Positions 1,581 through 63,670 of a stretch of 64,000 nucleotides of DNA are shown here, one piece after another. This DNA comes from Tridacna crocea (taxonomy: Eukaryota > Mollusca > Bivalvia > Cardiida > Cardiidae). The stretch spans positions 41,626,173 to 41,690,172 of the forward strand of contig OX031070.1 of the NCBI GenBank assembly GCA_943736015.1. Reading direction: 5' to 3'. The notes beneath the pieces are model-generated. The model was not told where the DNA came from, made no database searches, and saw nothing but the letters and a program-made list of their open reading frames with translations. Positions within the stretch are counted from its first letter, which is position 1; each line of letters starts with the position of its first letter. Position numbers and translations under genes: made by a program.

Positions 1581-1805
1581 CCCTTTACCACACGACAAAA
1601 TTTTAGACTTGTCCAAATTGAAAGCATTTGCAGACAACTAAATGAATGTAACTCAAAAATTGAAATTTGTTCTGGGAAGGGTAGAAAACACTGTGGGAAA
1701 AGGAGAAAATGCTGGTTACCAGCATTTTCTCCTTTTCCCATAGTGTTTTCAAAAGGCTTCTTTCTCAGTGGCGTCAAAAGTAGGGATTGTGTGGTAATGG
1801 GTTAA
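1577..1805 (-). mobile_element. TTAA hairpin MITE
   Basis: Full copy bounded by TTAA at 1577-1580 and 1802-1805, with a hairpin around TGCTGGTTACCAGCA. The outer stem reads CACTG on one side and AGTG on the other, a change matched on both arms relative to CATTG/CAATG copies. Confidence 0.9.
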
Positions 1806-5329: not shown

Positions 5330-5575
5330 GTGTTGCGAAGGCGACTTACTGCCTCTGCTGACAGTATTGACCCATATCAGCCTGTACAGTCTGCCCAGGC
5401 TGATATAACTCAATGTTTTTTGCTATTCATAACTTTTCTGCAAAGGTAAAGACCAATTTACCTCCAGATCCAGTTGACTGTTAGACAAGATGGGTTTGTG
5501 GATCCATAATTATGTGATGACTTATATGGTATATTGTATCACAGTGATGCATAAAGCCCCTTTTTGTGAGAGCAT
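5330..5575 (+). mobile_element. GTATCGACCC hairpin element, old copy
   Basis: Diverged copy of the element best seen at 31060: a hairpin (ATTGACCCATATCAGCCTG facing CAGGCTGATATAACTCAAT), then about 150 bp, ending GATGCATAAAGCCCC. The left flank is poorly kept. Confidence 0.6.
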
Positions 5576-8895: not shown

Positions 8896-9376
8896 TGCTG
8901 TATGAAAAGGGGGTTTAATGCATGTGCCAAAAATATCGACCCCGATCAGCCTGCACAGTCCGCCCTGGGCTGGAACTTTTCGATATTGGTCAATTTTCTT
9001 TTTGTCACAGGACCAGCCTATCTCATGATTAAGTTGGTTACCGAAAAAAAGTGGCTTCTATGAACCCATAATTATCCGATGACTTGGGCTAGTATCGTGC
9101 ATTTATTCAATGGAGATGCATTAACCCTTTCCAAAACAATCCCTGTTTTTTACGACCCTGGGAAAGAAGCTTTTTGAAAACATGGTGGAAAAAGGAGAAA
9201 ATGCTGGTAACCAGCATTTTCTCCTTTTCCCACAATGTTTTCTACCCTGCTGGAAACAAACATTAATTTTTGAGGTATATTTATTTTGTCGTCTTCAAGT
9301 GCTTTCATTTTGGACCACTCTACAATATTGTCGTTTGATAAAGAGTTAAGCCCCCTTTTGCCAGAACGCTGCTGAA
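8896..9376 (+). mobile_element. GTATCGACCC hairpin element, split by a TTAA MITE
   Basis: Left end GTATGAAAAGGGGGTTTAATG, degenerate hairpin near 8932-8980, then GATGCA. The MITE at 9121 interrupts at TTAA and the element resumes as TTAAGCCCCCTTTTG, matching GATGCA-AAAGCCCC at 5550 and 31298. Confidence 0.75.
9121..9349 (+). mobile_element. TTAA hairpin MITE, nested
   Basis: 229 bp with TTAA at both limits, inserted in the older hairpin element. Right end TTTGATAAAGAGTTAA. Confidence 0.92.
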
Positions 9377-10719: not shown

Positions 10720-10949
10720 TTAACCCTTTACTCCTTAGATACTCATTTTGACATATCAACAACAGACAGCTTTTGAAAACATTGTGGGAAAAGGAGAAAT
10801 TGCTAGTAATGAGCAATTTCTCCTTTTCCCACAATGTTTTCCACTAAATCATATATTTGTATCCTCATTTGTGCATATTTTTGACATCATATCTTTATTT
10901 GCTGCTGAAATGTAAGAGCCTCAAATTGGCATATCAGGTAAAGGGTTAA
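10720..10949 (+). mobile_element. TTAA hairpin MITE, subfamily B
   Basis: TTAA at 10720 and 10946. Differs from the main type in both flanks (TTACTCCTTAGATACTC; CCTCAAATTGGCATAT) and in the hairpin tip (TTGCTAGTAATGAGCAA), but keeps the stem base. Partner copies at 24124 and 29242. Confidence 0.9.
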
Positions 10950-13571: not shown

Positions 13572-13798
13572 TTAAGTCTTTACCACACAATCCCGACATT
13601 TTACAACCCAGGGATAGAAGCCTTTTGAAATCATTGTAGGAAAAGGAGATATGCTGGTAACCAACATTTTCTCCTTTTCCTACGATGCTTTCTACACTGG
13701 TGGAAACAAATTTCATCTTTAAGTTACATTGATTTTGTCATCTGCAAATGCTTTCAATTTGGAACAGACTTAAATTTTGTCGTTTGGTAAAGAGTTAA
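13572..13798 (+). mobile_element. TTAA hairpin MITE
   Basis: TTAA at 13572 and 13795. The stem base reads GTAGGAAAAGG with CCTTTTCCTAC opposite, a matched change from GTGGG/CCCAC. Confidence 0.9.
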
Positions 13799-20154: not shown

Positions 20155-20760
20155 AATAAATGGAAAGAAATTTCGATTTTTTTGAAGATTATATGAAGTT
20201 TTTACTATGCGCACGGTGGCGCTTCTTAGACATGCACTGTAGCATGTTATTCATTCGTATATTACGAACGGACTGGGTAGAATTGAGAGCTTCTGAATTG
20301 GAGTCACGAGTGCAGAAAGCTTTGGTCTTTCTGGGATAAAAGGAAAGAAATTCCGATTTTTTGAAGATTATATCGTCGGTTCGCTTCCAAAACCTCGTAA
20401 CTACAGCTTGTTAAAGCTGTAGTTACGAGGTTTTTGAAGCAAACCGACGATTTGAAGTTTATACTATGCGCACGGTGGCGCTTCTTAGATGTGCACTGTA
20501 GTACATTGTTCATATGTTACCAATGGATTGGGTAAAAGTGAGAGCTTCTAAATTTAAGTAATCAGTGCACTCAGAAAGCTATGGTCTTTCTGGGATAAAA
20601 AGAAAGAAATTTCGGTTTCTTGAAGATTATATGAAGTTTACATTATGCACACGGTTGTGCGCTGTAGCACATTGTTCGTACATTACGAACGAATTGAGTA
20701 GAAGTGAGAACTTCTGAATTTATTGAATCGGCACAGAAGGCTTGGCCTTTCTGGGGTAAA
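20155..20760. repeat. ~180-bp tandem repeat, 3 units
   Basis: Each unit holds TTGAAGATTATATGAAGTTT, ATGCGCACGGTGGCGCTTCT, GCACTGTAG, GAGAGCTTCTGAAT and GGTCTTTCTGGGATAAA. Unit 2 carries the inserted hairpin element at 20371. Confidence 0.8.
20371..20452. mobile_element. 80-bp hairpin element (CGTAACTACAG family), nested
   Basis: CGTCGGTTCGCTTCC and AACCTCGTAACTACAGCTTG, mirrored on the right as TACGAGGTTTTTGAAGCAAA and CCGACGA. The sister tandem units give the empty site (GATTATATGAAG), showing this is a mobile insertion. Confidence 0.88.
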
Positions 20761-21715: not shown

Positions 21716-21800
21716 TGATGTTGTCGGTTTACTTTCAAAACCTCGTAACTACAGCTTGTCACAAGCTGTAGTTACGAGGTTTTGGAGTAAAGCGAAGATA
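21716..21800. mobile_element. 80-bp hairpin element (CGTAACTACAG family)
   Basis: GTCGGTTTACTTTC and AACCTCGTAACTACAGCTTG, with a right arm reading ACAAGCTGTAGTTACGAGG. Confidence 0.88.
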
Positions 21801-22430
21801 TTTTGAATATACGCAAGTTTTTTGAGTTCATATATGAGCTTGGTTAGGAATTCGTGCAGAATATTTCCCTATTATTTTTGCTTATTGCGTCGAGTTAATT
21901 TATAGATTTATCATTGCTCTGTGAGGGTACCAAGTTCCTGTACTGTTCGTGGCATTGTTGCATTTCTGTGATTCCTCCAAGTTCACTTTACACGTTGAGA
22001 AATGATTTTCCAATCCATTCACAGAAGTAATGGTATTTGCTCATAAGTAAATAACGTAATTCAGCGAGAAATAAAAGTGAAGAAAGATGTTTATTGTAAA
22101 GAAAGCGTTTTTACATTGTTTTTGAGTGTTTTAGTACGCAATTATAATTGCCATGTCGAATTTCTTCAGTTAGATGTTCGAATGGCATCATTCGATTTTC
22201 CTTTCTTTCTCCCGTTCTTTTAGTTCAGCTTGCTCTCCCAAGTGTTCTTACCACGTTACAATTTGAAATAAATATCCTATATTTATGTTTACTTTTTTTG
22301 TTGTGCTATGAGAAGGTCTGAGGGTTAAGGGAATAATCACCGTTTTACAGACACAATACTGTGTTATTTGATTTATAGTGCAAAGACATTAAAAACATTG
22401 GCTGATATGTATGTAAACCATTTTCTCTAT
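21801..22430. other. unassigned, no gene seen
   Basis: AT-rich sequence, no repeat recognised. Confidence 0.35.
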
Positions 22431-24123: not shown

Positions 24124-24360
24124 TTAACCCTTTACCCCATAAGGCATTTCTATGGCATCTCAAATTGTCCCTAAGTAACAGCAAGGATCGCTTGGTCTTG
24201 GGCTTTTTCTCATGTGTAAATGACACCTTTTGATAGCATAGAAAACATTGTGATAAAAGGTGAAATTGCTCGTCACGAGCAATTTCACCTTTTGCTACAG
24301 TGTTTTCCAAAGGCTCCTACAAGCAATGAGTAGAAATGAGTTTCTATGGAGTAAAGTAAC
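24124..24360 (-). mobile_element. TTAA hairpin MITE, subfamily B, covarying stem
   Basis: Reads TTAACCCTTTACCCCATAAGG with the inner stem GGTGAAATTGCTCGT / ACGAGCAATTTCACC, where other B copies have GGAG/CTCC. The right TTAA is degraded. Confidence 0.82.
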
Positions 24361-29241: not shown

Positions 29242-29475
29242 TTAACCCTTTACTCCATAGATACTCATTTTGACGTATCAACAACAGACAGCTTTTGAAA
29301 ACATTGTGGGGAAAGGAGAAATTGCTCGTAACGAGCAATTTCTCCTTTTTCCCACAATGTTTTCCACTCAGTCAGATATTTGTATCCTCATTTGTCCATA
29401 TTTTTGACATCATATCATGATTTGCTGCTGAAATGGAATAGCCTCAAATTGGCATATAATTAGGTAAAGGGTTAA
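29242..29475 (+). mobile_element. TTAA hairpin MITE, subfamily B
   Basis: TTAA at 29242 and 29472; tip TTGCTCGTAACGAGCAA; close to the copy at 10720. Confidence 0.92.
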
Positions 29476-30069: not shown

Positions 30070-30280
30070 TATTTAGACATGTTAAGTTAAAAGAATATGC
30101 AGACCACAAATATGATGTGACTCAAAAATGAAGTTTTTCTTCGAAAGTGCAGAAAACATTTAGGTAAAAGAAGAAAGTATTGGCCACCGGTATTTTCTCC
30201 TGTTCCCTCAATATTTTCAAAGGTATTTTATCTCAAAGGTATCAAACCTTGAAATTGTATAGTGCAGGTTTAAGCTACTT
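30070..30280 (-). mobile_element. decayed TTAA MITE
   Basis: TTTAGACATGTTAAG, GAATATGCAGACCACAAATA, then a weak hairpin around TATTGGCCACCGGTA. Confidence 0.5.
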
Positions 30281-30828: not shown

Positions 30829-31050
30829 CTCTCTATATCAAAACGGCAAAATTTTAAACTGGTCCAAATTCAAAGCATTTGCAGACAACAATTTCCAAGT
30901 GTCTTATATAAAGGACTTTCTTTTGATAGAGTAGAAAACATGGTGGAAAAAGGAGAAAATGCTGGTTACTATTATCGTCTCCTTTTCCCCAATATGTTTT
31001 CTATCGTATTTTCTTTAAGGGTTGTTTAAAGTCGGGATTGTTTCGGATAT
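30829..31050 (-). mobile_element. TTAA hairpin MITE, diverged
   Basis: AAACGGCAAAATTTTAAACTGG at the left, hairpin base kept, tip degraded (TGCTGGTTACTATTATC). Confidence 0.65.
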
Positions 31051-31059
31051 AGGTAACTC

Positions 31060-31335
31060 ATGTATGATCCATACTCTGTGAAAAGGGGGCTTAATGCATC
31101 TGCCAAAAAAAGTATCGACCCATGTCAGCCTGCGCGGACTGCGCAGGCTGACATGGGTCGATACTTTTTGCCAGTGGACATTTTTCTGCATGTTACAGGA
31201 CCACTTTACCTGCAGCTCAAGTCGGTTTACAGATATAACGGGATTTTATAGGTGCATGATAATGTGATGTTTTGCTTGATATCACGGTTCATGGGGGATG
31301 CACAAAGCCCCTTTTTTGTCGGAACATGCCGGTGT
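31060..31335 (+). mobile_element. GTATCGACCC hairpin element, best copy
   Basis: GAAAAGGGGGCTTAATGCAT at the left pairs with ATGCACAAAGCCCCTTTTTT at the right as imperfect terminal inverted repeats. Inside is a long hairpin (31109-31171) with core CAGCCTGCGCGG / GCGCAGGCTG. About 270 bp, no coding frame. Confidence 0.85.
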
Positions 31336-31344
31336 AATGAAATA

Positions 31345-31625
31345 AACTTCCCCTACAAAATGACCCATGGGTCATTTTTCTACGTAGAGGAATGACCCAT
31401 GGGTCATTTTTCTACGTAGAGGAATGACCCATGGGTCATTTCTCTACGAAGAGAAAAGACCCGGGTCATTATTCCACGTAGAGAATTTACCCCAAAGGGT
31501 CATTCTTCTACGTAGAATATTGACCCGGGTCATTCCTTTACGTAGAGAAATGACTTTTGGGGTCATTTATCTACGTAGAAAAGTGACCCACGGGTCATAT
31601 TGTAGGGGAGGGTCATTTCTCTGCA
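31345..31625. repeat. minisatellite of alternating palindromes
   Basis: About 8 units of 32-35 bp, each pairing a palindrome such as ATGACCCATGGGTCAT with TCTACGTAGA. The central bases vary (CCATGG, CCCGGG, CCCACGGG) with the symmetry mostly kept. Confidence 0.9.
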
Positions 31626-32064: not shown

Positions 32065-32291
32065 TTAATCCATTACCACACAATCCCTACTTCTGACACC
32101 CCTGGGAAAGAAGCCTTTTGAAAACACTGTGGGAAAAGGAGAAAATGCTGGTAACCAGCATTTTCTCCTTTTTCCACAGTGTTTTCTACCCTTCCCAGAA
32201 CAAATTTCCATTTTTCAGTCACCTTTATTTTGTCGTTTGCAAATGCTTTCAGTTTGGACCAGTCTAAAATTTTATCATGGTAAAGAGTTAA
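32065..32291 (+). mobile_element. TTAA hairpin MITE, CACTG/CAGTG stem
   Basis: TTAA at both limits. Stem base CACTGTGGGA with CCACAGTG opposite; right end shortened (TATCATGGTAAAG). Confidence 0.92.
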
Positions 32292-33574: not shown

Positions 33575-33810
33575 AAAAGGAATATTCGGACATTTGCGTA
33601 AAGTGTCGTTTCGGATCAGCCTGCGCAATCCGCGCAGGCTGATCCGAAACGACACTTTCCGTTTTTTTTATGTAAATTTCTTTTTAACACAAGTCTACTG
33701 TAGCACAAACTCTAATATAGTCGTAAAGTGTCGTCTCGGATTAGCCTGCGCGGACAGTGCATGCTGATCCCAGACGACACTTTACGTAAATGTCCCAATG
33801 CCTCTTTTCA
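33575..33810. mobile_element. twin-hairpin element (GTGTCGTC family)
   Basis: Outer ends GGACATTTGCGTAAAGTG / CACTTTACGTAAATGTCC. Two hairpins (CGGATCAGCCTGCGCAATCC... and CGGATTAGCCTGCGCGG...) are separated by a ~65-bp T-rich spacer. Same layout at 60470. Confidence 0.85.
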
Positions 33811-36349: not shown

Positions 36350-36562
36350 ACAAACTAATTTTAGATTAGGCGAAATTAAAAGCATTTGCAAACCACAAAT
36401 AAATTGTGGTTCAAATATTTGAATTTGTCTCTGAAAGGTAAGAAAACGTTTTGGTAAAAGGAGAAAATGCTGGTACCAGCATTTTCTCCTTTTCCCAAAA
36501 TGTTTTCATATGCTGTCTTTCTGTCATTCTCCTGGTCTTTAAAACACAGAATTATGTGCTAA
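36350..36562 (-). mobile_element. TTAA hairpin MITE, diverged
   Basis: Tip shortened to TGCTGGTACCAGCA, still perfectly paired; the stem base has TTTTGG / CCAAAA. Confidence 0.75.
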
Positions 36563-37637: not shown

Positions 37638-38115
37638 TGACCCGTCACCCAAAAAGGAATCTTCTGGGAACTGCGAAAAGGTTCAACTCTGGTCAGACTG
37701 CGCGAATTGCGCAGGCTGACCAGAGTTTACACTTTTCGCTTTAAAAATATTTCCTGTATGAAAAGTGGTCATTCTACCTTGCTATACAATCATTTTTTGA
37801 ATTATCCACTTAAACTGACCAGCACTATCTTTGGTCTGTTTTCATTTAACCCATTACCACACAATCCCTACTTTTGACGACCCTGAGAAAAAATCCTTTA
37901 GAAAAAATTGTGGAAAAAGGAGAAAATGCTGGTGACCAGCATTTTCTCCATTTCCCACAATGTTTTCTACCCTTCACAAAAAAATTTCAAATTTCCAGTA
38001 ACTTTTAATTTGTCATCTGAAAGTGCTTTTAATTTGGACAAGCCTAAAATATTGTCGTTTGGTAATGAGTTAATTGATAGACGTAATTCCCAGAATGTCC
38101 CTTTTTCGAGTTACA
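37638..38115 (+). mobile_element. TGACCCGTCACGC element, split by a TTAA MITE
   Basis: Same element as at 60998 (GACCCGTCACCCAAAAAGG, hairpin GGTCAGACTGCGCG / CGCAGGCTGACC, GGTCTGTTTTCAT). After the MITE it resumes TTAATTGATAGACG and CCCAGAATGTCCC. Confidence 0.82.
37846..38073 (+). mobile_element. TTAA hairpin MITE, nested
   Basis: TTAA at 37846 and 38070; ends CCCATTACC / GGTAATGAG. The empty site is visible at 61201 (TTTTCATCTAATTGATG). Confidence 0.94.
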
Positions 38116-39589: not shown

Positions 39590-39824
39590 TTCAACACTTT
39601 ACCGCACAATTCCTAGTTTTAACGATACCTTGTGGAAGAGACCTTTTGAAAACACTGTGAGAAAAGGAGAAAATGCTGGTTACCAGCATTTTCTCCTTTT
39701 CTCAAAATGTTTTCTATAGCGTTTGCGGAACAAATTCTCCTACTTCAGCAATATTTTCAATTGTCGTCTGCACAGGCTTTGGATTTGGACAAGTTCAAAA
39801 CTTTGTCGTCTGTTATAGAATTAA
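39590..39824 (+). mobile_element. TTAA hairpin MITE, covarying stem
   Basis: Left CAACACTTTACCGCACAA; stem GTGAGAAAAGG with CCTTTTCTCA opposite; right end ATAGAATTAA. Confidence 0.88.
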
Positions 39825-39839
39825 CAACGTTCTATCGTG

Positions 39840-39905
39840 TACCTGAACTTAAGGATGAAAAGCTTTTAAAACATGGTGGAAAAAGGAGAAAATTCTGATG
39901 ATCAG
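39840..39905 (+). mobile_element. TTAA MITE fragment
   Basis: AAAACATGGTGGAAAAAGG to TTCTGATGATCAGCA; half hairpin only. Confidence 0.5.
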
Positions 39906-40009
39906 CATACTTGCTTTGTCATTTTCGATGATTATATTGACAATAAACTTTAAGACACCAACATTTTCATACAGAGAAACGACCATAACTACACAAAGGT
40001 GTATGGGGG

Positions 40010-40142: not shown

Positions 40143-40208
40143 AAAGTAACTCAGCTTCTGATTGGCTAAACCAAATGGTTTAGCCAATCAGAAGTTGCTA
40201 TACTTTCT
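40143..40208. mobile_element. ~66-bp hairpin element (GATTGGCTAAACC)
   Basis: GAAAAGTAACTCAGCTTCTG and GATTGGCTAAACCA face TGGTTTAGCCAATC and AGAAGTTGCTATACTTTC. Second copy at 63603. Confidence 0.82.
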
Positions 40209-42079: not shown

Positions 42080-42285
42080 CTTTCAAATCTTTTCCAAAAT
42101 GAAAACATTATGCAGACGACAAATTTCTTATGGCTAAAATACTGGATTTTGTCTTAATGTATAGAAAACATCGCGGGAAAAGGAGAAAATGCTGGTTACC
42201 AGCATTTTCTCCTTTTCCAGCAATGTTTTAAAAAGCCATTTCGGTCTTGGTCGTTTAAAGAAATTGGTTGGTTCAGTAAAGGGTC
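42080..42285 (-). mobile_element. TTAA hairpin MITE, ends lost
   Basis: CATTATGCAGACGACAAATT, a clean hairpin at 42164-42229, far end TCAGTAAAGGG. It sits just upstream of the 42501 gene. Confidence 0.8.
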
Positions 42286-42500
42286 TTTTAAGTTTTGCAT
42301 GAATTACATTATGCAAACCGTGAATATTACCTCCTAACGAAACCATTTATTATCGAAATTACTTTCGTTGCAGGTTGCGCTTTGAGGAAGGTCGTGTTTC
42401 GAAACAAAACGCAGACGACTCTTCAGTACTTTGCTACACTTAAATGGTTTAGAAGATTTACGACTTTTACTACAACTTACGGTAAAGAAGATTTACGACA

Positions 42501-43091
42501 ATGAGGAGGACAAAGTTACTAATACCTGACAAAGTAGAGGAGTCGGTTACAGTAACGCCCTTGCCTAGTTACGAAGAACAAACCAGCGTTAGTTATGTGG
42601 ATTTTATCGAAATGAAACGTTTCGCTGAGCAAGTGGGACTAGCTCCGTGTTTGACTCCTGTTTCGTTCCGTGACACCATCGTCTGCTTCGAGAACTCTCC
42701 GAAAAAGAGGTACAAAAGTGAAACTCATTACGTGCCGAAAGTGAGGCCAAAGAAATATGCGGATACTCTCATTATTTTTCCTAAAAGACCTCAGAAAAGT
42801 TTCGTGACTTTGTTGGATTACCATATAGACGAATGCCGGAGGTGGTTTAAAACGACTATGGAGTTTAAAGCCAGGACTTACACCACGCAGAAAATTATTC
42901 CTGACAAATTAGATCCAGATGGCGAAACGACAGAAAACGGTGGGGATGATGGAGTTAAGGTTAAAGTTAATGACGGACCTGGTGCTTCCCAGATATTTTT
43001 ACCGAGATGGAACAAAGATCGAGTCGATATGGAGGAAATGAAAATAGGACAACATTTAATGAACGGTGAAATTATTGTAAATGGATTTTGA
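42501..43091 (+). CDS. unrecognised 196-residue protein
   Basis: An intact frame of 196 codons, the longest non-repetitive one in the window. The ATG at 42501 has A at -3 (GACAATGAGG) and follows an in-frame TAA at 42483, so this start is fixed if the exon is as assumed. An acceptor-like ACTTTCGTTGCAG ends at 42373, giving a 127-nt leader before the ATG, and AATAAA lies at 43435. The product is about 22 kDa by length: a basic, proline-containing N-terminal two-thirds (K-K-R-Y-K, R-P-K-K-Y, F-P-K-R-P), then an acidic, Gly/Asp-rich stretch near residues 135-158, and a mixed C-terminus. No signal peptide, membrane segment, Cys cluster or catalytic motif is apparent. I do not recognise the family. 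The absence of repeats in the frame and the splice and poly(A) context support a real gene; expression is unproven. Confidence 0.65.
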   Translation: MRRTKLLIPDKVEESVTVTPLPSYEEQTSVSYVDFIEMKRFAEQVGLAPCLTPVSFRDTIVCFENSPKKRYKSETHYVPKVRPKKYADTLIIFPKRPQKSFVTLLDYHIDECRRWFKTTMEFKARTYTTQKIIPDKLDPDGETTENGGDDGVKVKVNDGPGASQIFLPRWNKDRVDMEEMKIGQHLMNGEIIVNGF

Positions 43092-43551: not shown

Positions 43552-43740
43552 CATGTATTGCAAAAAGTATCGATTCAGATCAGCCTGTGCAGTCCGCGGC
43601 GGCTGATCTTGATGGATACTTTATGCTTTTGGTCAATGTTTATCATGACCTAATAACATTCTACCTTACCGTTAGAAAAAAAGTAATTTCATGCCGTGAA
43701 TAAGTGATCCTGCGATGTTTTGCATGGTACAATAGACAAG
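43552..43740 (+). mobile_element. GTATCGACCC hairpin element, left end missing
   Basis: GCAAAAAGTATCGATTCAG, CAGCCTGTGCAGTCC and the downstream body to GATGTTTTGC. Confidence 0.65.
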
Positions 43741-43743
43741 CAT

Positions 43744-44045
43744 TAACTCTGTAGTCTGTACCAAACGACAAAATTGCAGGCTTGTCCAAATTGAAAGCAT
43801 TAGCAAAGGACACAATAAATATGGCTCGAAATTTGAAATTTGTTTTGGGAAGGGTAGAAATCATTGTGGGAAAAGGACAAAATGCTGGTTACCAGCATTT
43901 TCTCCTTTTCCTACAAATGGTTTAGAAATCATTGTGGGAAAAGGAGAAAATGCTGGTTACCAGCATTTTCTCCTTTTCCTACAATTGTTTCTAAAGACTT
44001 CTTTCTCTGGGTCATTAAAAATTGGGATTGTGTGGTAAATGGTTA
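43744..44045 (-). mobile_element. TTAA hairpin MITE with two tandem hairpins
   Basis: Two adjacent modules, each with GAAATCATTGTGGGAAAAGG and TGCTGGTTACCAGCA (43858-43921, 43922-43990), within one pair of element ends. The left TTAA is lost; the right is TTAA at 44042. Confidence 0.9.
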
Positions 44046-44243: not shown

Positions 44244-44325
44244 ATAACGTCTGCTTACTTCGAAAACCTCGTAACTACAGCTTGTACAAGCTCTAGTTAC
44301 GAGCTTTTCGCAGTAAACCGACGAT
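44244..44325. mobile_element. 80-bp hairpin element (CGTAACTACAG family)
   Basis: AACCTCGTAACTACAGCTTG and a right arm ACAAGCTCTAGTTACGAGC, then GTAAACCGACGATAA. Confidence 0.87.
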
Positions 44326-44326
44326 A

Positions 44327-46143: not shown

Positions 46144-46688
46144 TTAACTCATTACCAAACGACAAAATTTCAGGTTTGTCCAAATCGAAAGCATTTGCAG
46201 ACGACAAAATAAAAGTGACTAAAGGTTTGAAATTTGTTTTATGAAGGGTTGAAAACATTGTGGGAAAAGGAGAAAATGCTGGTTACCAGGATTTTTCTCC
46301 TTTTCCCACAATATTTTCTAAAGGCTTCTTACTGGCTCAAGGTCGTCAAAAGTAGGGTAGACAACATTGTGGGAAGAGGAGAAAATGCTGGTTACCAGCA
46401 TTTTCTCCTTTAGCACAATGTTTTCTAAATGCTTCTTTCTTAGGGTCATCAAAGGTAGGATAGAAAACATTGTGGGAAAAGGAGAAAATTCTGCTTACCA
46501 GTATTTTTTTCCTTTTCTCACAATATTTTCTTAAGGCTTCTTACTCAGAGCCGTCAAAATTAAGGTAGAAAACATTGTGGGAAAAGGAGAAAATGCTGGT
46601 TACCAGCATTTTCTCCTTTTCCCACAATGTTTTCTAAAGGCCTTTTTCTCATAGTCGTCAAAAGTAGGGATTGTGTGGTAAAGGGTTA
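46144..46688 (-). mobile_element. TTAA hairpin MITE with four tandem hairpin modules
   Basis: TTAA at 46144 and 46685. Four hairpins start near 46252, 46361, 46461 and 46566, spaced about 100-109 bp, each followed by an AAGGCTTCTT-like and GTCAAAAGTAGG-like segment. The element is 545 bp instead of about 230. Confidence 0.94.
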
Positions 46689-48096: not shown

Positions 48097-48182
48097 ATAT
48101 CGTCCGTTTACTTCCAAAACCTCGTAACTACAGCTTGTAAACAAGCTGTAGTTACGAGGTTTTGGAAGTAAACCGACGATAT
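48097..48182. mobile_element. 80-bp hairpin element (CGTAACTACAG family), best copy
   Basis: ATATCGTCCGTTTACTTCC and AACCTCGTAACTACAGCTTG, mirrored to GGAAGTAAACCGACGATAT with one mismatch. Confidence 0.93.
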
Positions 48183-49002: not shown

Positions 49003-49231
49003 TTAACCTATTACCACACAATCCCTACTTTTGACGCCTCTGAGAAAGAAGCCTTTTGAAAACACTGTGGGAAAAGGAGAAAATGCTGGTAACCAGCATT
49101 TTCTCCTTTTCCCACAGTGTTTTCTACCCTTCCCAGAACAAATTTCAATTTTTCAGTCACCTTTATTTTATCGTCTGCACATGCCTTCAATTTGGACCAG
49201 TCTAAAATTTTCTCGTGTGGTAAAGAGTTAA
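49003..49231 (+). mobile_element. TTAA hairpin MITE, CACTG/CAGTG stem
   Basis: TTAA at both limits; perfectly paired CACTGTGGGA / TCCCACAGTG stem. Confidence 0.94.
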
Positions 49232-50141: not shown

Positions 50142-50585
50142 TTAACCCATTACCACACAATCCCCTACTTTTGACGCCAGTGAGAAAGAAGCCTTGTGAA
50201 AACACCGTAGGAAAAGGAGAAAAATGCTGGGTTACCAGCATTTTCTCCTTTTCCTACAGTGTTTTCTACCCTTCCCAGAACACCTTTACCCGTCACCTTT
50301 ATTTTGTCGTCTGCAAATGCTTTCAATTTGGACCAGTCTAAAATTTGTTATGTGGTAATTTGAACCAGTCTAAAATTTTGTTGTGTGGTAATTTGAGCCA
50401 GTCTAAAATTTTGTTGTGTGGTAATTTGAACCAGTCTAAAATCTTGTTGTGTGGTAATTTGAACCAGTCTAAAATCTTGTTGTGTGGTAATTTGAACCAG
50501 TCTAAAATTTTGTTGTGTGGTAATTTGAACCAGTCTAAAATCTTGTTGTGTGGTAATTTGAACCAGTCTAAAATTTGTGAGTTAA
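50142..50585 (+). mobile_element. TTAA hairpin MITE with a 33-bp minisatellite in its right end
   Basis: Normal left end and hairpin (GTAGGAAAAGG / CCTTTTCCTAC), then eight copies of a 33-bp unit (CAGTCTAAAATTTTGTTGTG, TGGTAATTTGAAC) made from the element's own right end, then GTGAGTTAA at 50577-50585. Confidence 0.93.
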
Positions 50586-50686
50586 GCTCCTGTTTTGTAG
50601 ACAGTGACGATCAAGATGAGACTACCCACAACTTGCTGTCTGAACATGTGTTTGCGCTGTCTGCTTTTCTGAGATATTCGGCTTAA

Positions 50687-50919
50687 TTAAACCTTTACGA
50701 AACAATCCCTGGTTTTTACGACCCTTATATAGAAGCCTTTTGAAAACATTGTGGGAAAAGGAGGAAATGTTGGTAACCAGCATTTTTCCCTTTTCCCTCA
50801 ATGTTTTCTACCCTGCTGGAAACAAATTTCCAACAAAATTCCAGTTACAAAGATTTTGTCGTCTGCAAGTGCTTTCAATTTGGGCCAGATTAAAGTTTTG
50901 TCAGTTGGTAAATGGTTAA
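50687..50919 (+). mobile_element. TTAA hairpin MITE (duplicated block, unit 1)
   Basis: TTAAACCTTTACGAAACAA; right end TCAGTTGGTAAATGGTTAA shared with the next copy. Confidence 0.9.
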
Positions 50920-51299
50920 CCTACTACCACACAATCCCTACTTTTTACGCCCCTTAGGAAGAAGCCTTTTGAAAACACTGTGGGAAAAGAAGAAAATGCT
51001 GGTAACCAGCATTTTCTTCTTTTCCCACAGTGTTTTCTACCCTTTCCAGAACAAATTCAATTTTTTCAGTTACCTTTATTTTGTCTCTTGCAAATGCTTT
51101 CAATTTGGACCAGTCTAAAATTTGTTGTGTGGTAATTTGAACCAGTCTAAAATTTTGTTGTGTGGTAATTTGAACCAGTCTAAAATTTTGTTGTGTGGTA
51201 ATTTTAACCAGTCTAAAATTTTGTTGTGTGGTAATTTGAACCAGTCTAAAATTTTGTTGTGTGGTAATTTGAACCAGTCTAAAATTTGTTGTGAGTTAA
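50916..51299 (+). mobile_element. TTAA hairpin MITE with 33-bp minisatellite (unit 2)
   Basis: Stem GAAGAAAATGCTGG / CCAGCATTTTCTTC, covarying; about six 33-bp units; ends GTGAGTTAA. Confidence 0.93.
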
Positions 51300-51400
51300 G
51301 CTCCTGTTTTGTAGACAGTGACGATCAAGATGAGACTACCCACAACTTGCTGTCTGAGCATGTGTTTGCGCTGTCTGCTTTTCTGAGATATTCGGCTTAA

Positions 51401-51635
51401 TGAAGCCTTTACCAAACAATCCCTTGTTTTTACGACCCTGATATAGAAGCCTTTTGAAAACATTGTGGGAAAAGGAAGAAATGTTGGTAACCAGTATTTT
51501 TTCCCTTTTCCCACAATGTTTTCTACCCTGCTGGAAACAAAGTTTCCAACAAAATTCCAGTTACGAATATTTTGTCGTCTGCAAGTGCTTTCAATTTGGA
51601 CCAGATTAAAGTTTTGTCAGTTGGTAAATGGTTAA
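51401..51635 (+). mobile_element. TTAA hairpin MITE (duplicated block, unit 2)
   Basis: Counterpart of 50687-50919; left TTAA changed to TGAAG; right TTAA shared with the next copy. Confidence 0.9.
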
Positions 51636-51860
51636 CCTACTACCACACAATCCCTACTTTTTACGCCCCTTAGGAAGAAGCCTTTTGAAAACACGGTGGG
51701 AAAAGGAGAAAATGCTGGTAACCAGCATTTTCTTCTTTTCCCACAGTGTTTTCTACCCTTTCCAGAACAAATTCAATTTTTTCAGTCACCTTTACTTTGT
51801 CTCTTGCAAATGCTTTCAATTTGGACCAGTCTAAAATTTTGTCGTGTGGTAAAGAGTTAA
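51632..51860 (+). mobile_element. TTAA hairpin MITE without minisatellite (unit 3)
   Basis: Close to 50916 but with a single right-end unit and a normal GTGTGGTAAAGAGTTAA, so it shows the state before expansion. Confidence 0.93.
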
Positions 51861-51959
51861 GAGAAAACAGTGTTTATGCGGAATACAAGAGTCAACGGTG
51901 GGTGTGCGACGCTGTAAGGAAAGAAAGCCTTCTCCTCCTTTCTGTTAAAGAAAACTACA

Positions 51960-52155
51960 TTTACCCTTTACTTCCACTATCCCGAATTTTATGATCTTGG
52001 AGTAGAAGGCTTTCGAAAACATCGCGAGAACAGGAGAAAATGCTGGTTACCAGCATTTCCTCCTTTTCTCATGCTGTTTTATACCATTTTACAGAAATGA
52101 AAATCTATCCATTGAGCCTCAATGAATTTGCTGTCTTCAAAAGCTTTGGATTAGA
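51960..52155 (+). mobile_element. TTAA hairpin MITE, diverged
   Basis: TTTACCCTTTACTTCCAC; stem GCGAGAACAGG with CCTTTTCTC opposite; right end lost in AAAGCTTTGGATTAG. Confidence 0.7.
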
Positions 52156-53189: not shown

Positions 53190-53365
53190 AAAAATGTTTG
53201 ACTTGTCCAAACTGAAAACATTTGCAAACCAAATCTTAATGTGGCTTAAGTCATAAGATTTTGTCTCTGAAACAGCTGAAAACATGGCGGGAAAAGGAGA
53301 AAATGCTGGTTACCAGCATTTTCTCCTTTTTCCACCATGTTTTCCAAAGCCTTCCTTTCTTTGAT
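53190..53365 (-). mobile_element. TTAA hairpin MITE, ends lost
   Basis: TTGACTTGTCCAAACTGAAAAC, stem base CATGGCGGG with CCACCATG opposite, then CCTTCCTTTCTTTGATG. Confidence 0.75.
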
Positions 53366-57614: not shown

Positions 57615-57850
57615 ATATAAGGCGTGCTCTGTAAAAAGTGGGCTAGATCTATTGCGAAACGTATCGACTCATGTCAGCCTGCGCGATCCGCGCAGGTTGA
57701 CATGAGTCGAAACTTTTTGCTATCTTTAACTTTTCAGCATGACAGAGGACTAATCTAACATATGATTCAAATGTTGTAAAACGATATAGATTTAGGGGGT
57801 CCATGATTATGTGATATGTTGTATCATGTATCATTGGGATTTATTATATA
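57615..57850 (+). mobile_element. GTATCGACCC hairpin element
   Basis: GTATCGACTCATGTCAGCC and CAGGTTGACATGAGTCGA form the hairpin; downstream body to TGTATCATTGGG. Confidence 0.78.
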
Positions 57851-60469: not shown

Positions 60470-60700
60470 TTGGACATTGGCGTAAAGTGTCGTCTCGGAT
60501 AAACCTGCGCACTCTGCGCAGACTAATGTGAGACGGCACTTTAAGTCAACAGTAGACTCTTGTCCTAGAGTAGACTTGCGTAAAACAGAAAATTACATAG
60601 AAACGGAAAGTGTCGTCTCGGATCAGCCTGCGCGGACTGCGCAGGCTGATCCGAGACGACACTTTACGCAAATATCCGAATGTCCTTTTTTGCCTGTGTT
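60470..60700. mobile_element. twin-hairpin element (GTGTCGTC family)
   Basis: GGACATTGGCGTAAAGTG on the left and CACTTTACGCAAATATCC on the right. The second hairpin (60608-60666) is perfect; the first is degraded. Confidence 0.87.
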
Positions 60701-60997: not shown

Positions 60998-61254
60998 TGA
61001 CCCGTCACGCAAAAAGGGACCTTCTGGGAATTCCGAAAAGTGTCAACCTTGGTCAGACTGCGCGAATTGTACTGGCTGGCCAGGGTTGACACTTTTCCCC
61101 TCATGGGCATTTTCTGTATGAAAAGTGATCATTGTACCATGATATATAATCATTTTAGAATTATCAACTTAAACTGACCTGCACTATCGTTGATCTGTTT
61201 TCATCTAATTGATGTGCAGAATTTCCAGGTGGCCCCTTTTTGCGTGATGGGTCA
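60998..61254 (+). mobile_element. TGACCCGTCACGC element, intact
   Basis: 257 bp; ends TGACCCGTCACGCAAAAAGG and CCTTTTTGCGTGATGGGTCA; internal hairpin AAGTGTCAACCTTGGTCAG / CTGGCCAGGGTTGACACTT. It provides the empty site for the MITE at 37846. Confidence 0.88.
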
Positions 61255-63334: not shown

Positions 63335-63562
63335 TTAACCCTTTACCACGCAATGCCCACTTTAAACGACCGTGAGAAAGAATCCTTTTGAAAACATCGT
63401 AGGAAAAGTAGAAAATGCTGGTAACCAGCATTTTCTACTTTTCCTACAATGTTTTCTCCTTGTCCCTAAACAAATCTTAGTTTTTCAGTCTTGTTTAATT
63501 TGTCATCTGCAAATACTTTCAATTAGGACAAACCTAAAATTTTGTCGATTGGTATAGAGTTG
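63335..63562 (+). mobile_element. TTAA hairpin MITE, doubly covarying stem
   Basis: Stem GTAGGAAAAGTAGAAAATGC faces GCATTTTCTACTTTTCCTAC: two changes from the usual GTGGG and GGAG, each matched on the other arm. Right end ATTGGTATAGAGTTGA. Confidence 0.92.
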
Positions 63563-63599
63563 AGAATATTCTTTGTCTTGTTTTTCAAGTTTTTCCGAC

Positions 63600-63670
63600 C
63601 GTGAAAGTAACAAAGCTTTTGATTGGCTTAACCAAATGATTTAGCCAATCAGATGTTCTGTTACTTTCTC
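63600..63670. mobile_element. ~66-bp hairpin element (GATTGGCT family)
   Basis: GAAAGTAACAAAGCTTTTG, GATTGGCTTAACCA facing TGATTTAGCCAATC, GTTACTTTC. Relative of 40143. Confidence 0.82.

Follow-up and report, generated by a model that had tools for sequence, protein, structure and literature searches.

Does the central palindrome of a transposable element change as a unit, with both halves altered together, and if so, what keeps the halves alike? This question is raised by the copy of a short repeat at 63335. The first-pass annotation of the window, by which we mean the whole 64-kb stretch of DNA analysed here, had reported that the stem arms of several copies carry matched changes. It had found them to fit correction of one arm by the other or selection on the hairpin.

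The repeat family and its central palindrome

A profile search with a 229-base consensus returned 85 non-overlapping matches to one TTAA MITE family of about 227 bp, which occupy 24.4% of the window (GC content 36.6%) at a frequency of about one copy per kilobase. The median length of the 39 near-full-length copies was 227 bp, which is too short for a transposase. TTAA was present at the left end in 32 of these 39, at the right end in 31 and at both ends in 25. The left end usually reads TTAACCC[T/A]TTACCA. The right end is mostly ...TGGTAAAGAGTTAA, that is CTCT when read inwards, and GGGTTAA instead in some copies, against an expected CC[C/T]T end. The terminal repeats are short, with the consensus complementary at 12 of the first 13 positions inside the ends. 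Judged by these sequence features, the repeat is most readily classed as a non-autonomous piggyBac-type (TTAA) MITE of a bivalve. No Pfam match to a transposase was obtained for the five open reading frames scanned among the 22 of at least 110 aa in the window, and viral and genome contig collections, which may omit near relatives of the window, gave 0 matches to the MITE. The window also carries a refilin (FAM101) open reading frame at 42486-43091 (Pfam 1.8e-21), whose named relatives are bivalve (for example Mercenaria mercenaria 62%, Mactra antiquata 60%); an ENA contig matches at 94%. This reading frame is the main clue to a bivalve host.

The centre of the MITE has the form GAAAACATTGTGGGAAAAGGAGAAAATGCTGGT-A-(reverse complement), with 33-bp arms and a 1-nt loop, and in the family consensus the two arms pair at all 33 positions. 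When up to 12 mismatches were allowed, searches with the arms yielded 79 and 80 matches, and those with a shuffled arm 0 and 2. The palindrome of the copy at 63335 reads GTAGGAAAAGTAG / CTACTTTTCCTAC and contains two matched sites and an unmatched C at stem position 9 (Table 1). Its predicted fold has -42.1 kcal/mol against a shuffle mean of -16.3 (z -8.1), and the right TTAA of this copy is mutated to TTGA. Just downstream, at 63603-63668, lies one of two copies of a further palindrome type, TGATTGGCTTAACCA; the other is at 40143-40206.

Parts of the MITE also occur in tandem. The palindrome region is repeated at 46245-46669 (4 x 105 bp) and at 43855-43984 (1.9 x 68 bp), and 33-bp minisatellites derived from the 3' end of the MITE were found at 50325-50576 (7.7 copies) and 51102-51293 (5.9 copies).

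Table 1. Palindromes of the window with their positions, strands and arm changes (positions within arms are stem positions).
Feature	Position	Strand	Observation
MITE copy at 63335	63335-63563	+	229 bp including both target-site copies; profile match 63336-63561, 143.7 bits
5' arm of this copy	63390-63422	+	matched changes at 12 (G>A) and 20 (G>T)
Loop of this copy	63423-63423	+	single A
3' arm of this copy	63424-63456	+	partner changes C>T and C>A
Palindrome	50971-51037	+	GAAG/CTTC plus inherited CACTG/CAGTG
Palindrome, segmental duplicate of the 50971 copy	51687-51753	+	GGAG/CTTC unmatched; CACGG/CAGTG (inherited pair 8 matched, 9 unmatched)
Palindrome, subfamily-B type	24241-24307	-	matched at 21, 26 and 31; GGTG/CACC, also AATTGCTCG/CGAGCAATT; outside the tree owing to too few alignable flank columns
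Palindrome, subfamily B	29297-29364	+	matched at 26 and 31
Palindrome, subfamily B	10775-10841	+	matched at 26; 31 altered on both sides, non-complementary (G>A, C>G)
Palindrome	39648-39714	+	matched at 13 (GTGAG/CTCA), common to 52015
Palindrome	52015-52081	+	matched at 9 and 13
Palindrome	13627-13692	+	matched at 12 (GTAGG/CCTAC)
Palindrome	50198-50266	+	matched at 12 (GTAGG/CCTAC) plus inherited pair at 8; loop T
Palindrome	53278-53344	-	matched transversion at 9 (CATGG/CCATG)
Palindrome	36442-36507	-	matched transversion at 10
Palindrome	42164-42230	-	matched at 11
Old palindrome	30152-30218	-	matched transversion at 11; matched at 28 (the latter uncounted in the main tree test)
Palindrome	32120-32186	+	inherited CACTG/CAGTG
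Palindrome	49058-49124	+	inherited CACTG/CAGTG
Palindrome	1684-1750	-	inherited pair at 8 (CACTA/CAGTG)
Second palindromic family (AAAGTGTCG...GCGC, 5-nt loop), 11 copies	5361-5419, 8929-8985, 31107-31169, 33600-33658, 33725-33783, 37677-37735, 43562-43622, 57657-57718, 60484-60542, 60607-60665, 61037-61095		clear excess of matched changes
Third palindromic family, arms of about 41 bp	2893-2976, 20369-20452, 21720-21801, 44245-44326, 48098-48181		weak excess
Fourth palindromic family (GATCAGACTGCACG core)	24038, 25084, 29503, 30649, 39004, 44728, 59133		no matched excess in these 7 copies

Matched changes between the arms

Direct reading recovered the stated bases in every copy for which matched changes had been reported (63372, 50980, 24250, 39655, 13640, 50205, 53283, 32127, 49064 and 50985). 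In the raw count, the 71 of 85 copies with at least 50 of the 67 stem and loop columns (the other 14 hold too little of the palindrome) carry 32 matched double changes, where 7.7 would be expected if columns were independent. This comparison overstates the effect because it includes shared ancestry, namely the pairs at positions 8, 26 and 31, as well as some poorly aligned copies. Fourteen copies were dropped for gaps, inserts or poor alignment, which left 57, and two more with at least 15 mismatches, which left 55. When changes were shuffled within divergence classes of these 55 copies, 7.2 +/- 2.4 matches were obtained, with a maximum of 16 in 2000 shuffles, compared with 26 observed.

For the ancestry test a maximum-likelihood tree was built from the flank columns only, stem changes were placed on it by parsimony and matched changes falling on the same branch were counted. 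The null placed the changes of each column randomly by branch activity and retained column rates and change types. Eight copies with too few flank columns were left out, so that the tree set comprised 47 copies, each with no more than 14 stem mismatches and with 80 or more flank columns. Twelve same-branch matched changes were counted against 3.43 expected (sd 1.85, P=0.0005). It had been claimed beforehand, together with the result that would refute it, that paired changes exceed the single-site expectation on a copy phylogeny; the tree test bears this out, and the shuffles and bootstrap trees agree. Across 20 bootstrap trees 9-13 matched changes were observed at a mean expectation of 3.0, and the largest P was 0.004; the deep part of the flank tree is poorly resolved. 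An initial tree test on 49 copies, including the poorly matching 1849 and 62157, had given 12 against 5.1 (20 of 3000).

Leave-one-out runs with a slightly different branch weighting kept P at or below 0.0016 for each of the 7 positions or 5 copies tested. The excess was also retained when positions 8 and 12 were both removed (8 against 2.5, P=0.005) and when copies 63336, 30076 and 51964 were all removed (8 against 2.3, P=0.002). Matched transversions numbered 5 against 0.81 (P=0.0013) and matched transitions 7 against 2.6 (P=0.018). Tips alone contributed 9 matched changes against 3.5 expected (P=0.011); such changes are private within the 64-kb sample. Besides, same-branch doubles numbered 17 at the true partner compared with 1.1-7.7 per 33 pairs at slid partners (offset by 1-8 positions). 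A separate tool applied to 35 indel-free copies counted 10 pairs changed on both sides against 2.7, a value reached in 0 of 500 shuffles, which ignore relatedness. The same test on mirrored flanks showed no matched excess (3 against 3.4), and co-variation of the terminal repeats was not significant (3 against 1.2, P=0.13). The halves of the palindrome thus co-vary beyond chance and shared descent.

The first-pass annotation had contrasted the stem with outer arms that drift without pairing. These regions are indeed unpaired (19-24% complementary), but they are not arms: apart from the short terminal repeats they are unrelated flanks. It had also suspected that some matched pairs are subfamily traits, and CACTG/CAGTG proved to be inherited. 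The pair at position 8 is matched in 1684, 50198 and 51687 as well, where the adjacent base differs, and all six copies with it form one flank-defined subfamily (tree support 88); they were therefore counted as one event. Likewise, the pairs at 26 and 31 are inherited within subfamily B. A linked arm variant, T9G+G14A, was seen in four copies (30934-30999, 9176-9242, 53278-53344 and 39867-39919); three carry it on the 5' arm, whereas 30934 carries it on the 3' arm. This is the distribution that inversion or arm transfer would leave.

Conservation of the stem

Across 57 copies the arms deviate from the consensus at 6-7% of sites, the inner flanks at 20% and the terminal repeats at 13-15%, and stem divergence is about one third of the flank rate. 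With CpG sites excluded, stem change was below flank change for all four bases. It was also lower in four of four subfamilies when each was compared with its own consensus, with P<0.001 in three (for example 10/462 in the stem against 56/831 in the flanks) and P=0.055 in one (12/396 against 40/714).

Among the consensus stems of five subfamilies three equal the family consensus, one differs by pair 8, and that of subfamily B differs by pairs 26 and 31; the flanks of B (three copies) differ at 54 of 120 columns. All three differences between subfamily consensus stems are thus matched, with position 31 matched in two of the three B copies. On the tips, 9 matched events were found with 118 unmatched changes. 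The contrast between subfamily stems and tips, a comparison picked after seeing the data, gave Fisher P=0.0006, or P=0.007 without position 31. When all internal-branch events were counted (3 matched, 16 unmatched), the contrast with the tips was not significant (P=0.19). Four of these 16 unmatched events lie in two pairs of segmental duplicates, which were not spread by transposition, and six in the groups 47837/30076 and 30833/26722, whose support is 54-58 and which are missing from the tree that supports the position-8 subfamily at 88. Three are at position 8 near the root, two at position 31 of B (unmatched in 10775) and one at position 10 in 39593/51964 (support 79-80). To leave these 16 out is a decision made after seeing the data. 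The conservation of the stem is therefore firm, whereas the contrast between source elements and tips is not.

Signs of the mechanism

The loop base was A in 43, T in 8 and G in 4 of 55 copies. A>T occurred in 5 events and A>G in 2 (Fisher P=0.039, Poisson P=0.058). The palindrome makes up 67 of 227 columns and is touched by 12 of the 23 deletions that remove 5 bp or more (P=0.019); 7 of these 12 span the loop. The bias towards loop flips and the palindrome deletions are weak signs of template switching between the arms. Between copies, at least two derived changes were shared by opposite arms in 34 cases and by the same arm in 29. In eight copies the two arms have at least two derived changes in common, and some of these cases are inherited or poorly aligned. 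The two arms are thus without separate identity. Mismatch frequency showed no gradient with distance from the loop (rho 0.17, P=0.33). At the edge of the palindrome, changes that would extend it (T>A and T>G) are present, in numbers too few for a test of outward growth.

G.T pairs were no commoner than A.C pairs (44 against 51, P=0.54), so nothing favours an RNA hairpin in particular, and RNA wobble tolerance was rejected. Known non-coding RNAs were likewise set aside, since Rfam covariance models at the gathering score gave only a tRNA in the window.

Two adjacent MITEs that share one TTAA lie in a segmental duplication (50561-51150 and 51271-51880, 96% identical, 558/581), which dates the changes between its halves to after insertion. 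Five stem differences separate the duplicates, and two of the five, judged by eye, give better pairing in one of the duplicates, provided that the family consensus is the ancestral state. Adjacent mismatches stay uncorrected beside one of these two changes, again by eye and with inferred polarity. The differences are too few to decide on a mechanism. Protection of dead copies from mutation was also considered and rejected, as the duplicate stems decayed no more slowly than the rest (5/134 against 12/~441 differing, by eye and in small numbers).

Other palindromic families

Three further palindromic families of the window were examined for matched changes, with counts that ignore kinship. The second family showed 25 matched cells against 8.6, and 30 doubles against 11-16 at slid partners. 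Several of its copies are perfect palindromes with differing arms; 31107 and 60607, for instance, differ at six positions on both arms (by eye). A viral contig scan gave 0 matches to this family. The third family had 4 matched against 1.2, with 4 doubles against 0-3 at slid partners. The fourth had 2 against 1.4, with 6 doubles against 2-5, weaker matches being left out. Apart from these families, a short-palindrome array (GGGTCATTTTTCTACGTAGAGGAATGACCC) was noted at 31358-31554.

How the arms may be kept alike

Our best explanation, which we hold only tentatively, is a joint one: active elements would keep a symmetric, conserved core in which matched changes persist, symmetry would aid mobilisation, and template switching would make many of the double changes. 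Active source MITEs would keep the 33-bp palindrome symmetric and largely unchanged. Matched two-arm changes would be those that persist and spread, and unmatched changes would mostly be decay after insertion. Symmetry may matter for mobilisation, in which the palindrome would probably serve a transposase or host factor as a dyad site; a DNA site is suggested because there is no RNA wobble signal. The polymerase may switch template across the palindrome and copy arm from arm, which would create many doubles in one step. We are less sure of how the double changes arise than of the conserved core. Against the joint explanation stand the contrast with the tips, which loses significance when every internal-branch event is included, the borderline loop bias and the fourth palindromic family with its lack of excess. 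Most matched events are also single sites, a kind that did not exceed simulation in RNA genes (PMC8794818). Moreover, fold-back copying might favour sites near the loop, and the mismatches show no such gradient.

Both processes named by the first-pass annotation are partly supported and neither is proven. Arm-templated correction gains from the transversions, the loop bias, the deletions and the sharing between own arms, but the missing loop gradient and the mostly unmatched private changes count against it as the sole cause. Selection on the hairpin gains from the three-fold conservation of the stem and from subfamily differences that are matched only, but matched events are not significantly more frequent on internal branches and no wobble signal was seen.

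Template switching or fold-back repair between the arms in all copies, active or dead and without any selection, is conceivable as the sole cause, if somewhat unlikely. Such pure mutational homogenisation would suit the private matched changes on tips above expectation, a matched share that, over all tree events, is not significantly different on internal branches and on tips, the copies with changes shared by their own arms, the similar counts of same-arm and opposite-arm sharing, the loop flips and the palindrome deletions. One clear and one weak excess among the other palindromic families point the same way, and the process is documented in RNA genes (PMC8794818) and in yeast (PMC8604942). 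However, homogenisation alone should by our reasoning leave the divergence of the arms from the consensus unlowered, yet divergence in the stem is three-fold lower than in the flanks. Private stem changes mostly stay unmatched, and the segmental duplicate retains neighbouring mismatches that were not corrected.

Compensatory selection with two hits and no template switching appears unlikely. Here a symmetric site or hairpin would be needed, single changes would cut mobility and second hits would restore it. The stem is conserved across subfamilies and their consensus stems differ solely by matched pairs, and an internal region more conserved than the termini, with a suggested role in transposition, has been described for coral CMITEs (PMC2872659). 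Two-hit selection suffices for the subfamily changes; it fits private transversion pairs in old copies less well. Private matched changes and transversions in copies with old flanks would need second hits in presumably inactive elements, barring many small unsampled source lineages, and the lack of wobble tolerance does not help.

We consider it distinctly unlikely that MITE palindromes are kept symmetric by a repair tied to mobilisation, by which one arm would template the other on excision and re-copying, every new active lineage would start perfect and several unrelated palindromic families would evolve concertedly.

An artefact of shared hot spots in like arm contexts and of inherited pairs counted repeatedly is very improbable: G>A/C>T changes at positions 12 and 20 do recur on single arms, CACTG/CAGTG is inherited and the raw count is inflated, but the excess survives a null that holds column rate, branch activity and substitution type as well as the removal of positions 8 and 12, and it is clearer for transversions than for transitions.

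Comparison with known systems

Among the matches listed, no paper on co-evolution of MITE arms was found by title, and the sole text match to four stem words, a zebrafish paper, is unrelated by title and abstract.

A close resemblance is to the CMITEs of Acropora corals, which are piggyBac-type, form tandem arrays and are more conserved between families in their interior than at their termini; a role of the interior in transposition was suggested (PMC2872659). Similar to our family, CMITEs have TTAA targets, a CCC-type left terminal motif, a high copy number and a conserved interior, are non-coding and occur in tandem arrays (PMC2872659). However, CMITEs measure about 100 bp and the clam MITE about 227 bp, and the 60-bp internal consensus of CMITEs looks unrelated and non-palindromic by eye (PMC2872659). 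Arm co-variation is not mentioned in the parts of that paper considered here (PMC2872659). As a cis element behind the success of the MITE, the conserved and symmetric core is a candidate; such a role was suggested and left open for coral CMITEs (PMC2872659).

In RNA genes, template-switch mutations create or repair hairpins; simulation is exceeded there by several simultaneous matched changes and by loop inversions alone but not by single matched changes, and the combination of matched changes with a flipped loop is very rare (PMC8794818). Template switching in yeast homogenises the arms of inverted repeats and inverts their spacers (PMC8604942). Our palindrome resembles these systems in its matched two-arm changes and, at the level of a borderline bias, in loop inversion (PMC8794818, PMC8604942). 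Unlike those RNA genes and yeast coding genes, it belongs to a multicopy transposon and shows mostly single-site events, with two in 63390-63456.

Long inverted repeats of Caenorhabditis are likewise actively maintained in their structure (PMC1803023). They are long, involve gene pairs and conserve structure far more than sequence, in contrast to the 33-bp arms and 1-nt loop found here, where the stem sequence is conserved too (PMC1803023).

As ways of keeping a palindrome intact, two-hit selection and one-step copying of an arm are difficult to tell apart in RNA genes, in which function is a confounder. At its frequency in the window, the MITE extrapolates to a very large number of replicates in one genome, most of them non-functional, so that the mechanisms would become separable by counting all copies, and its palindrome lends itself to a natural test of the way in which DNA palindromes stay intact.
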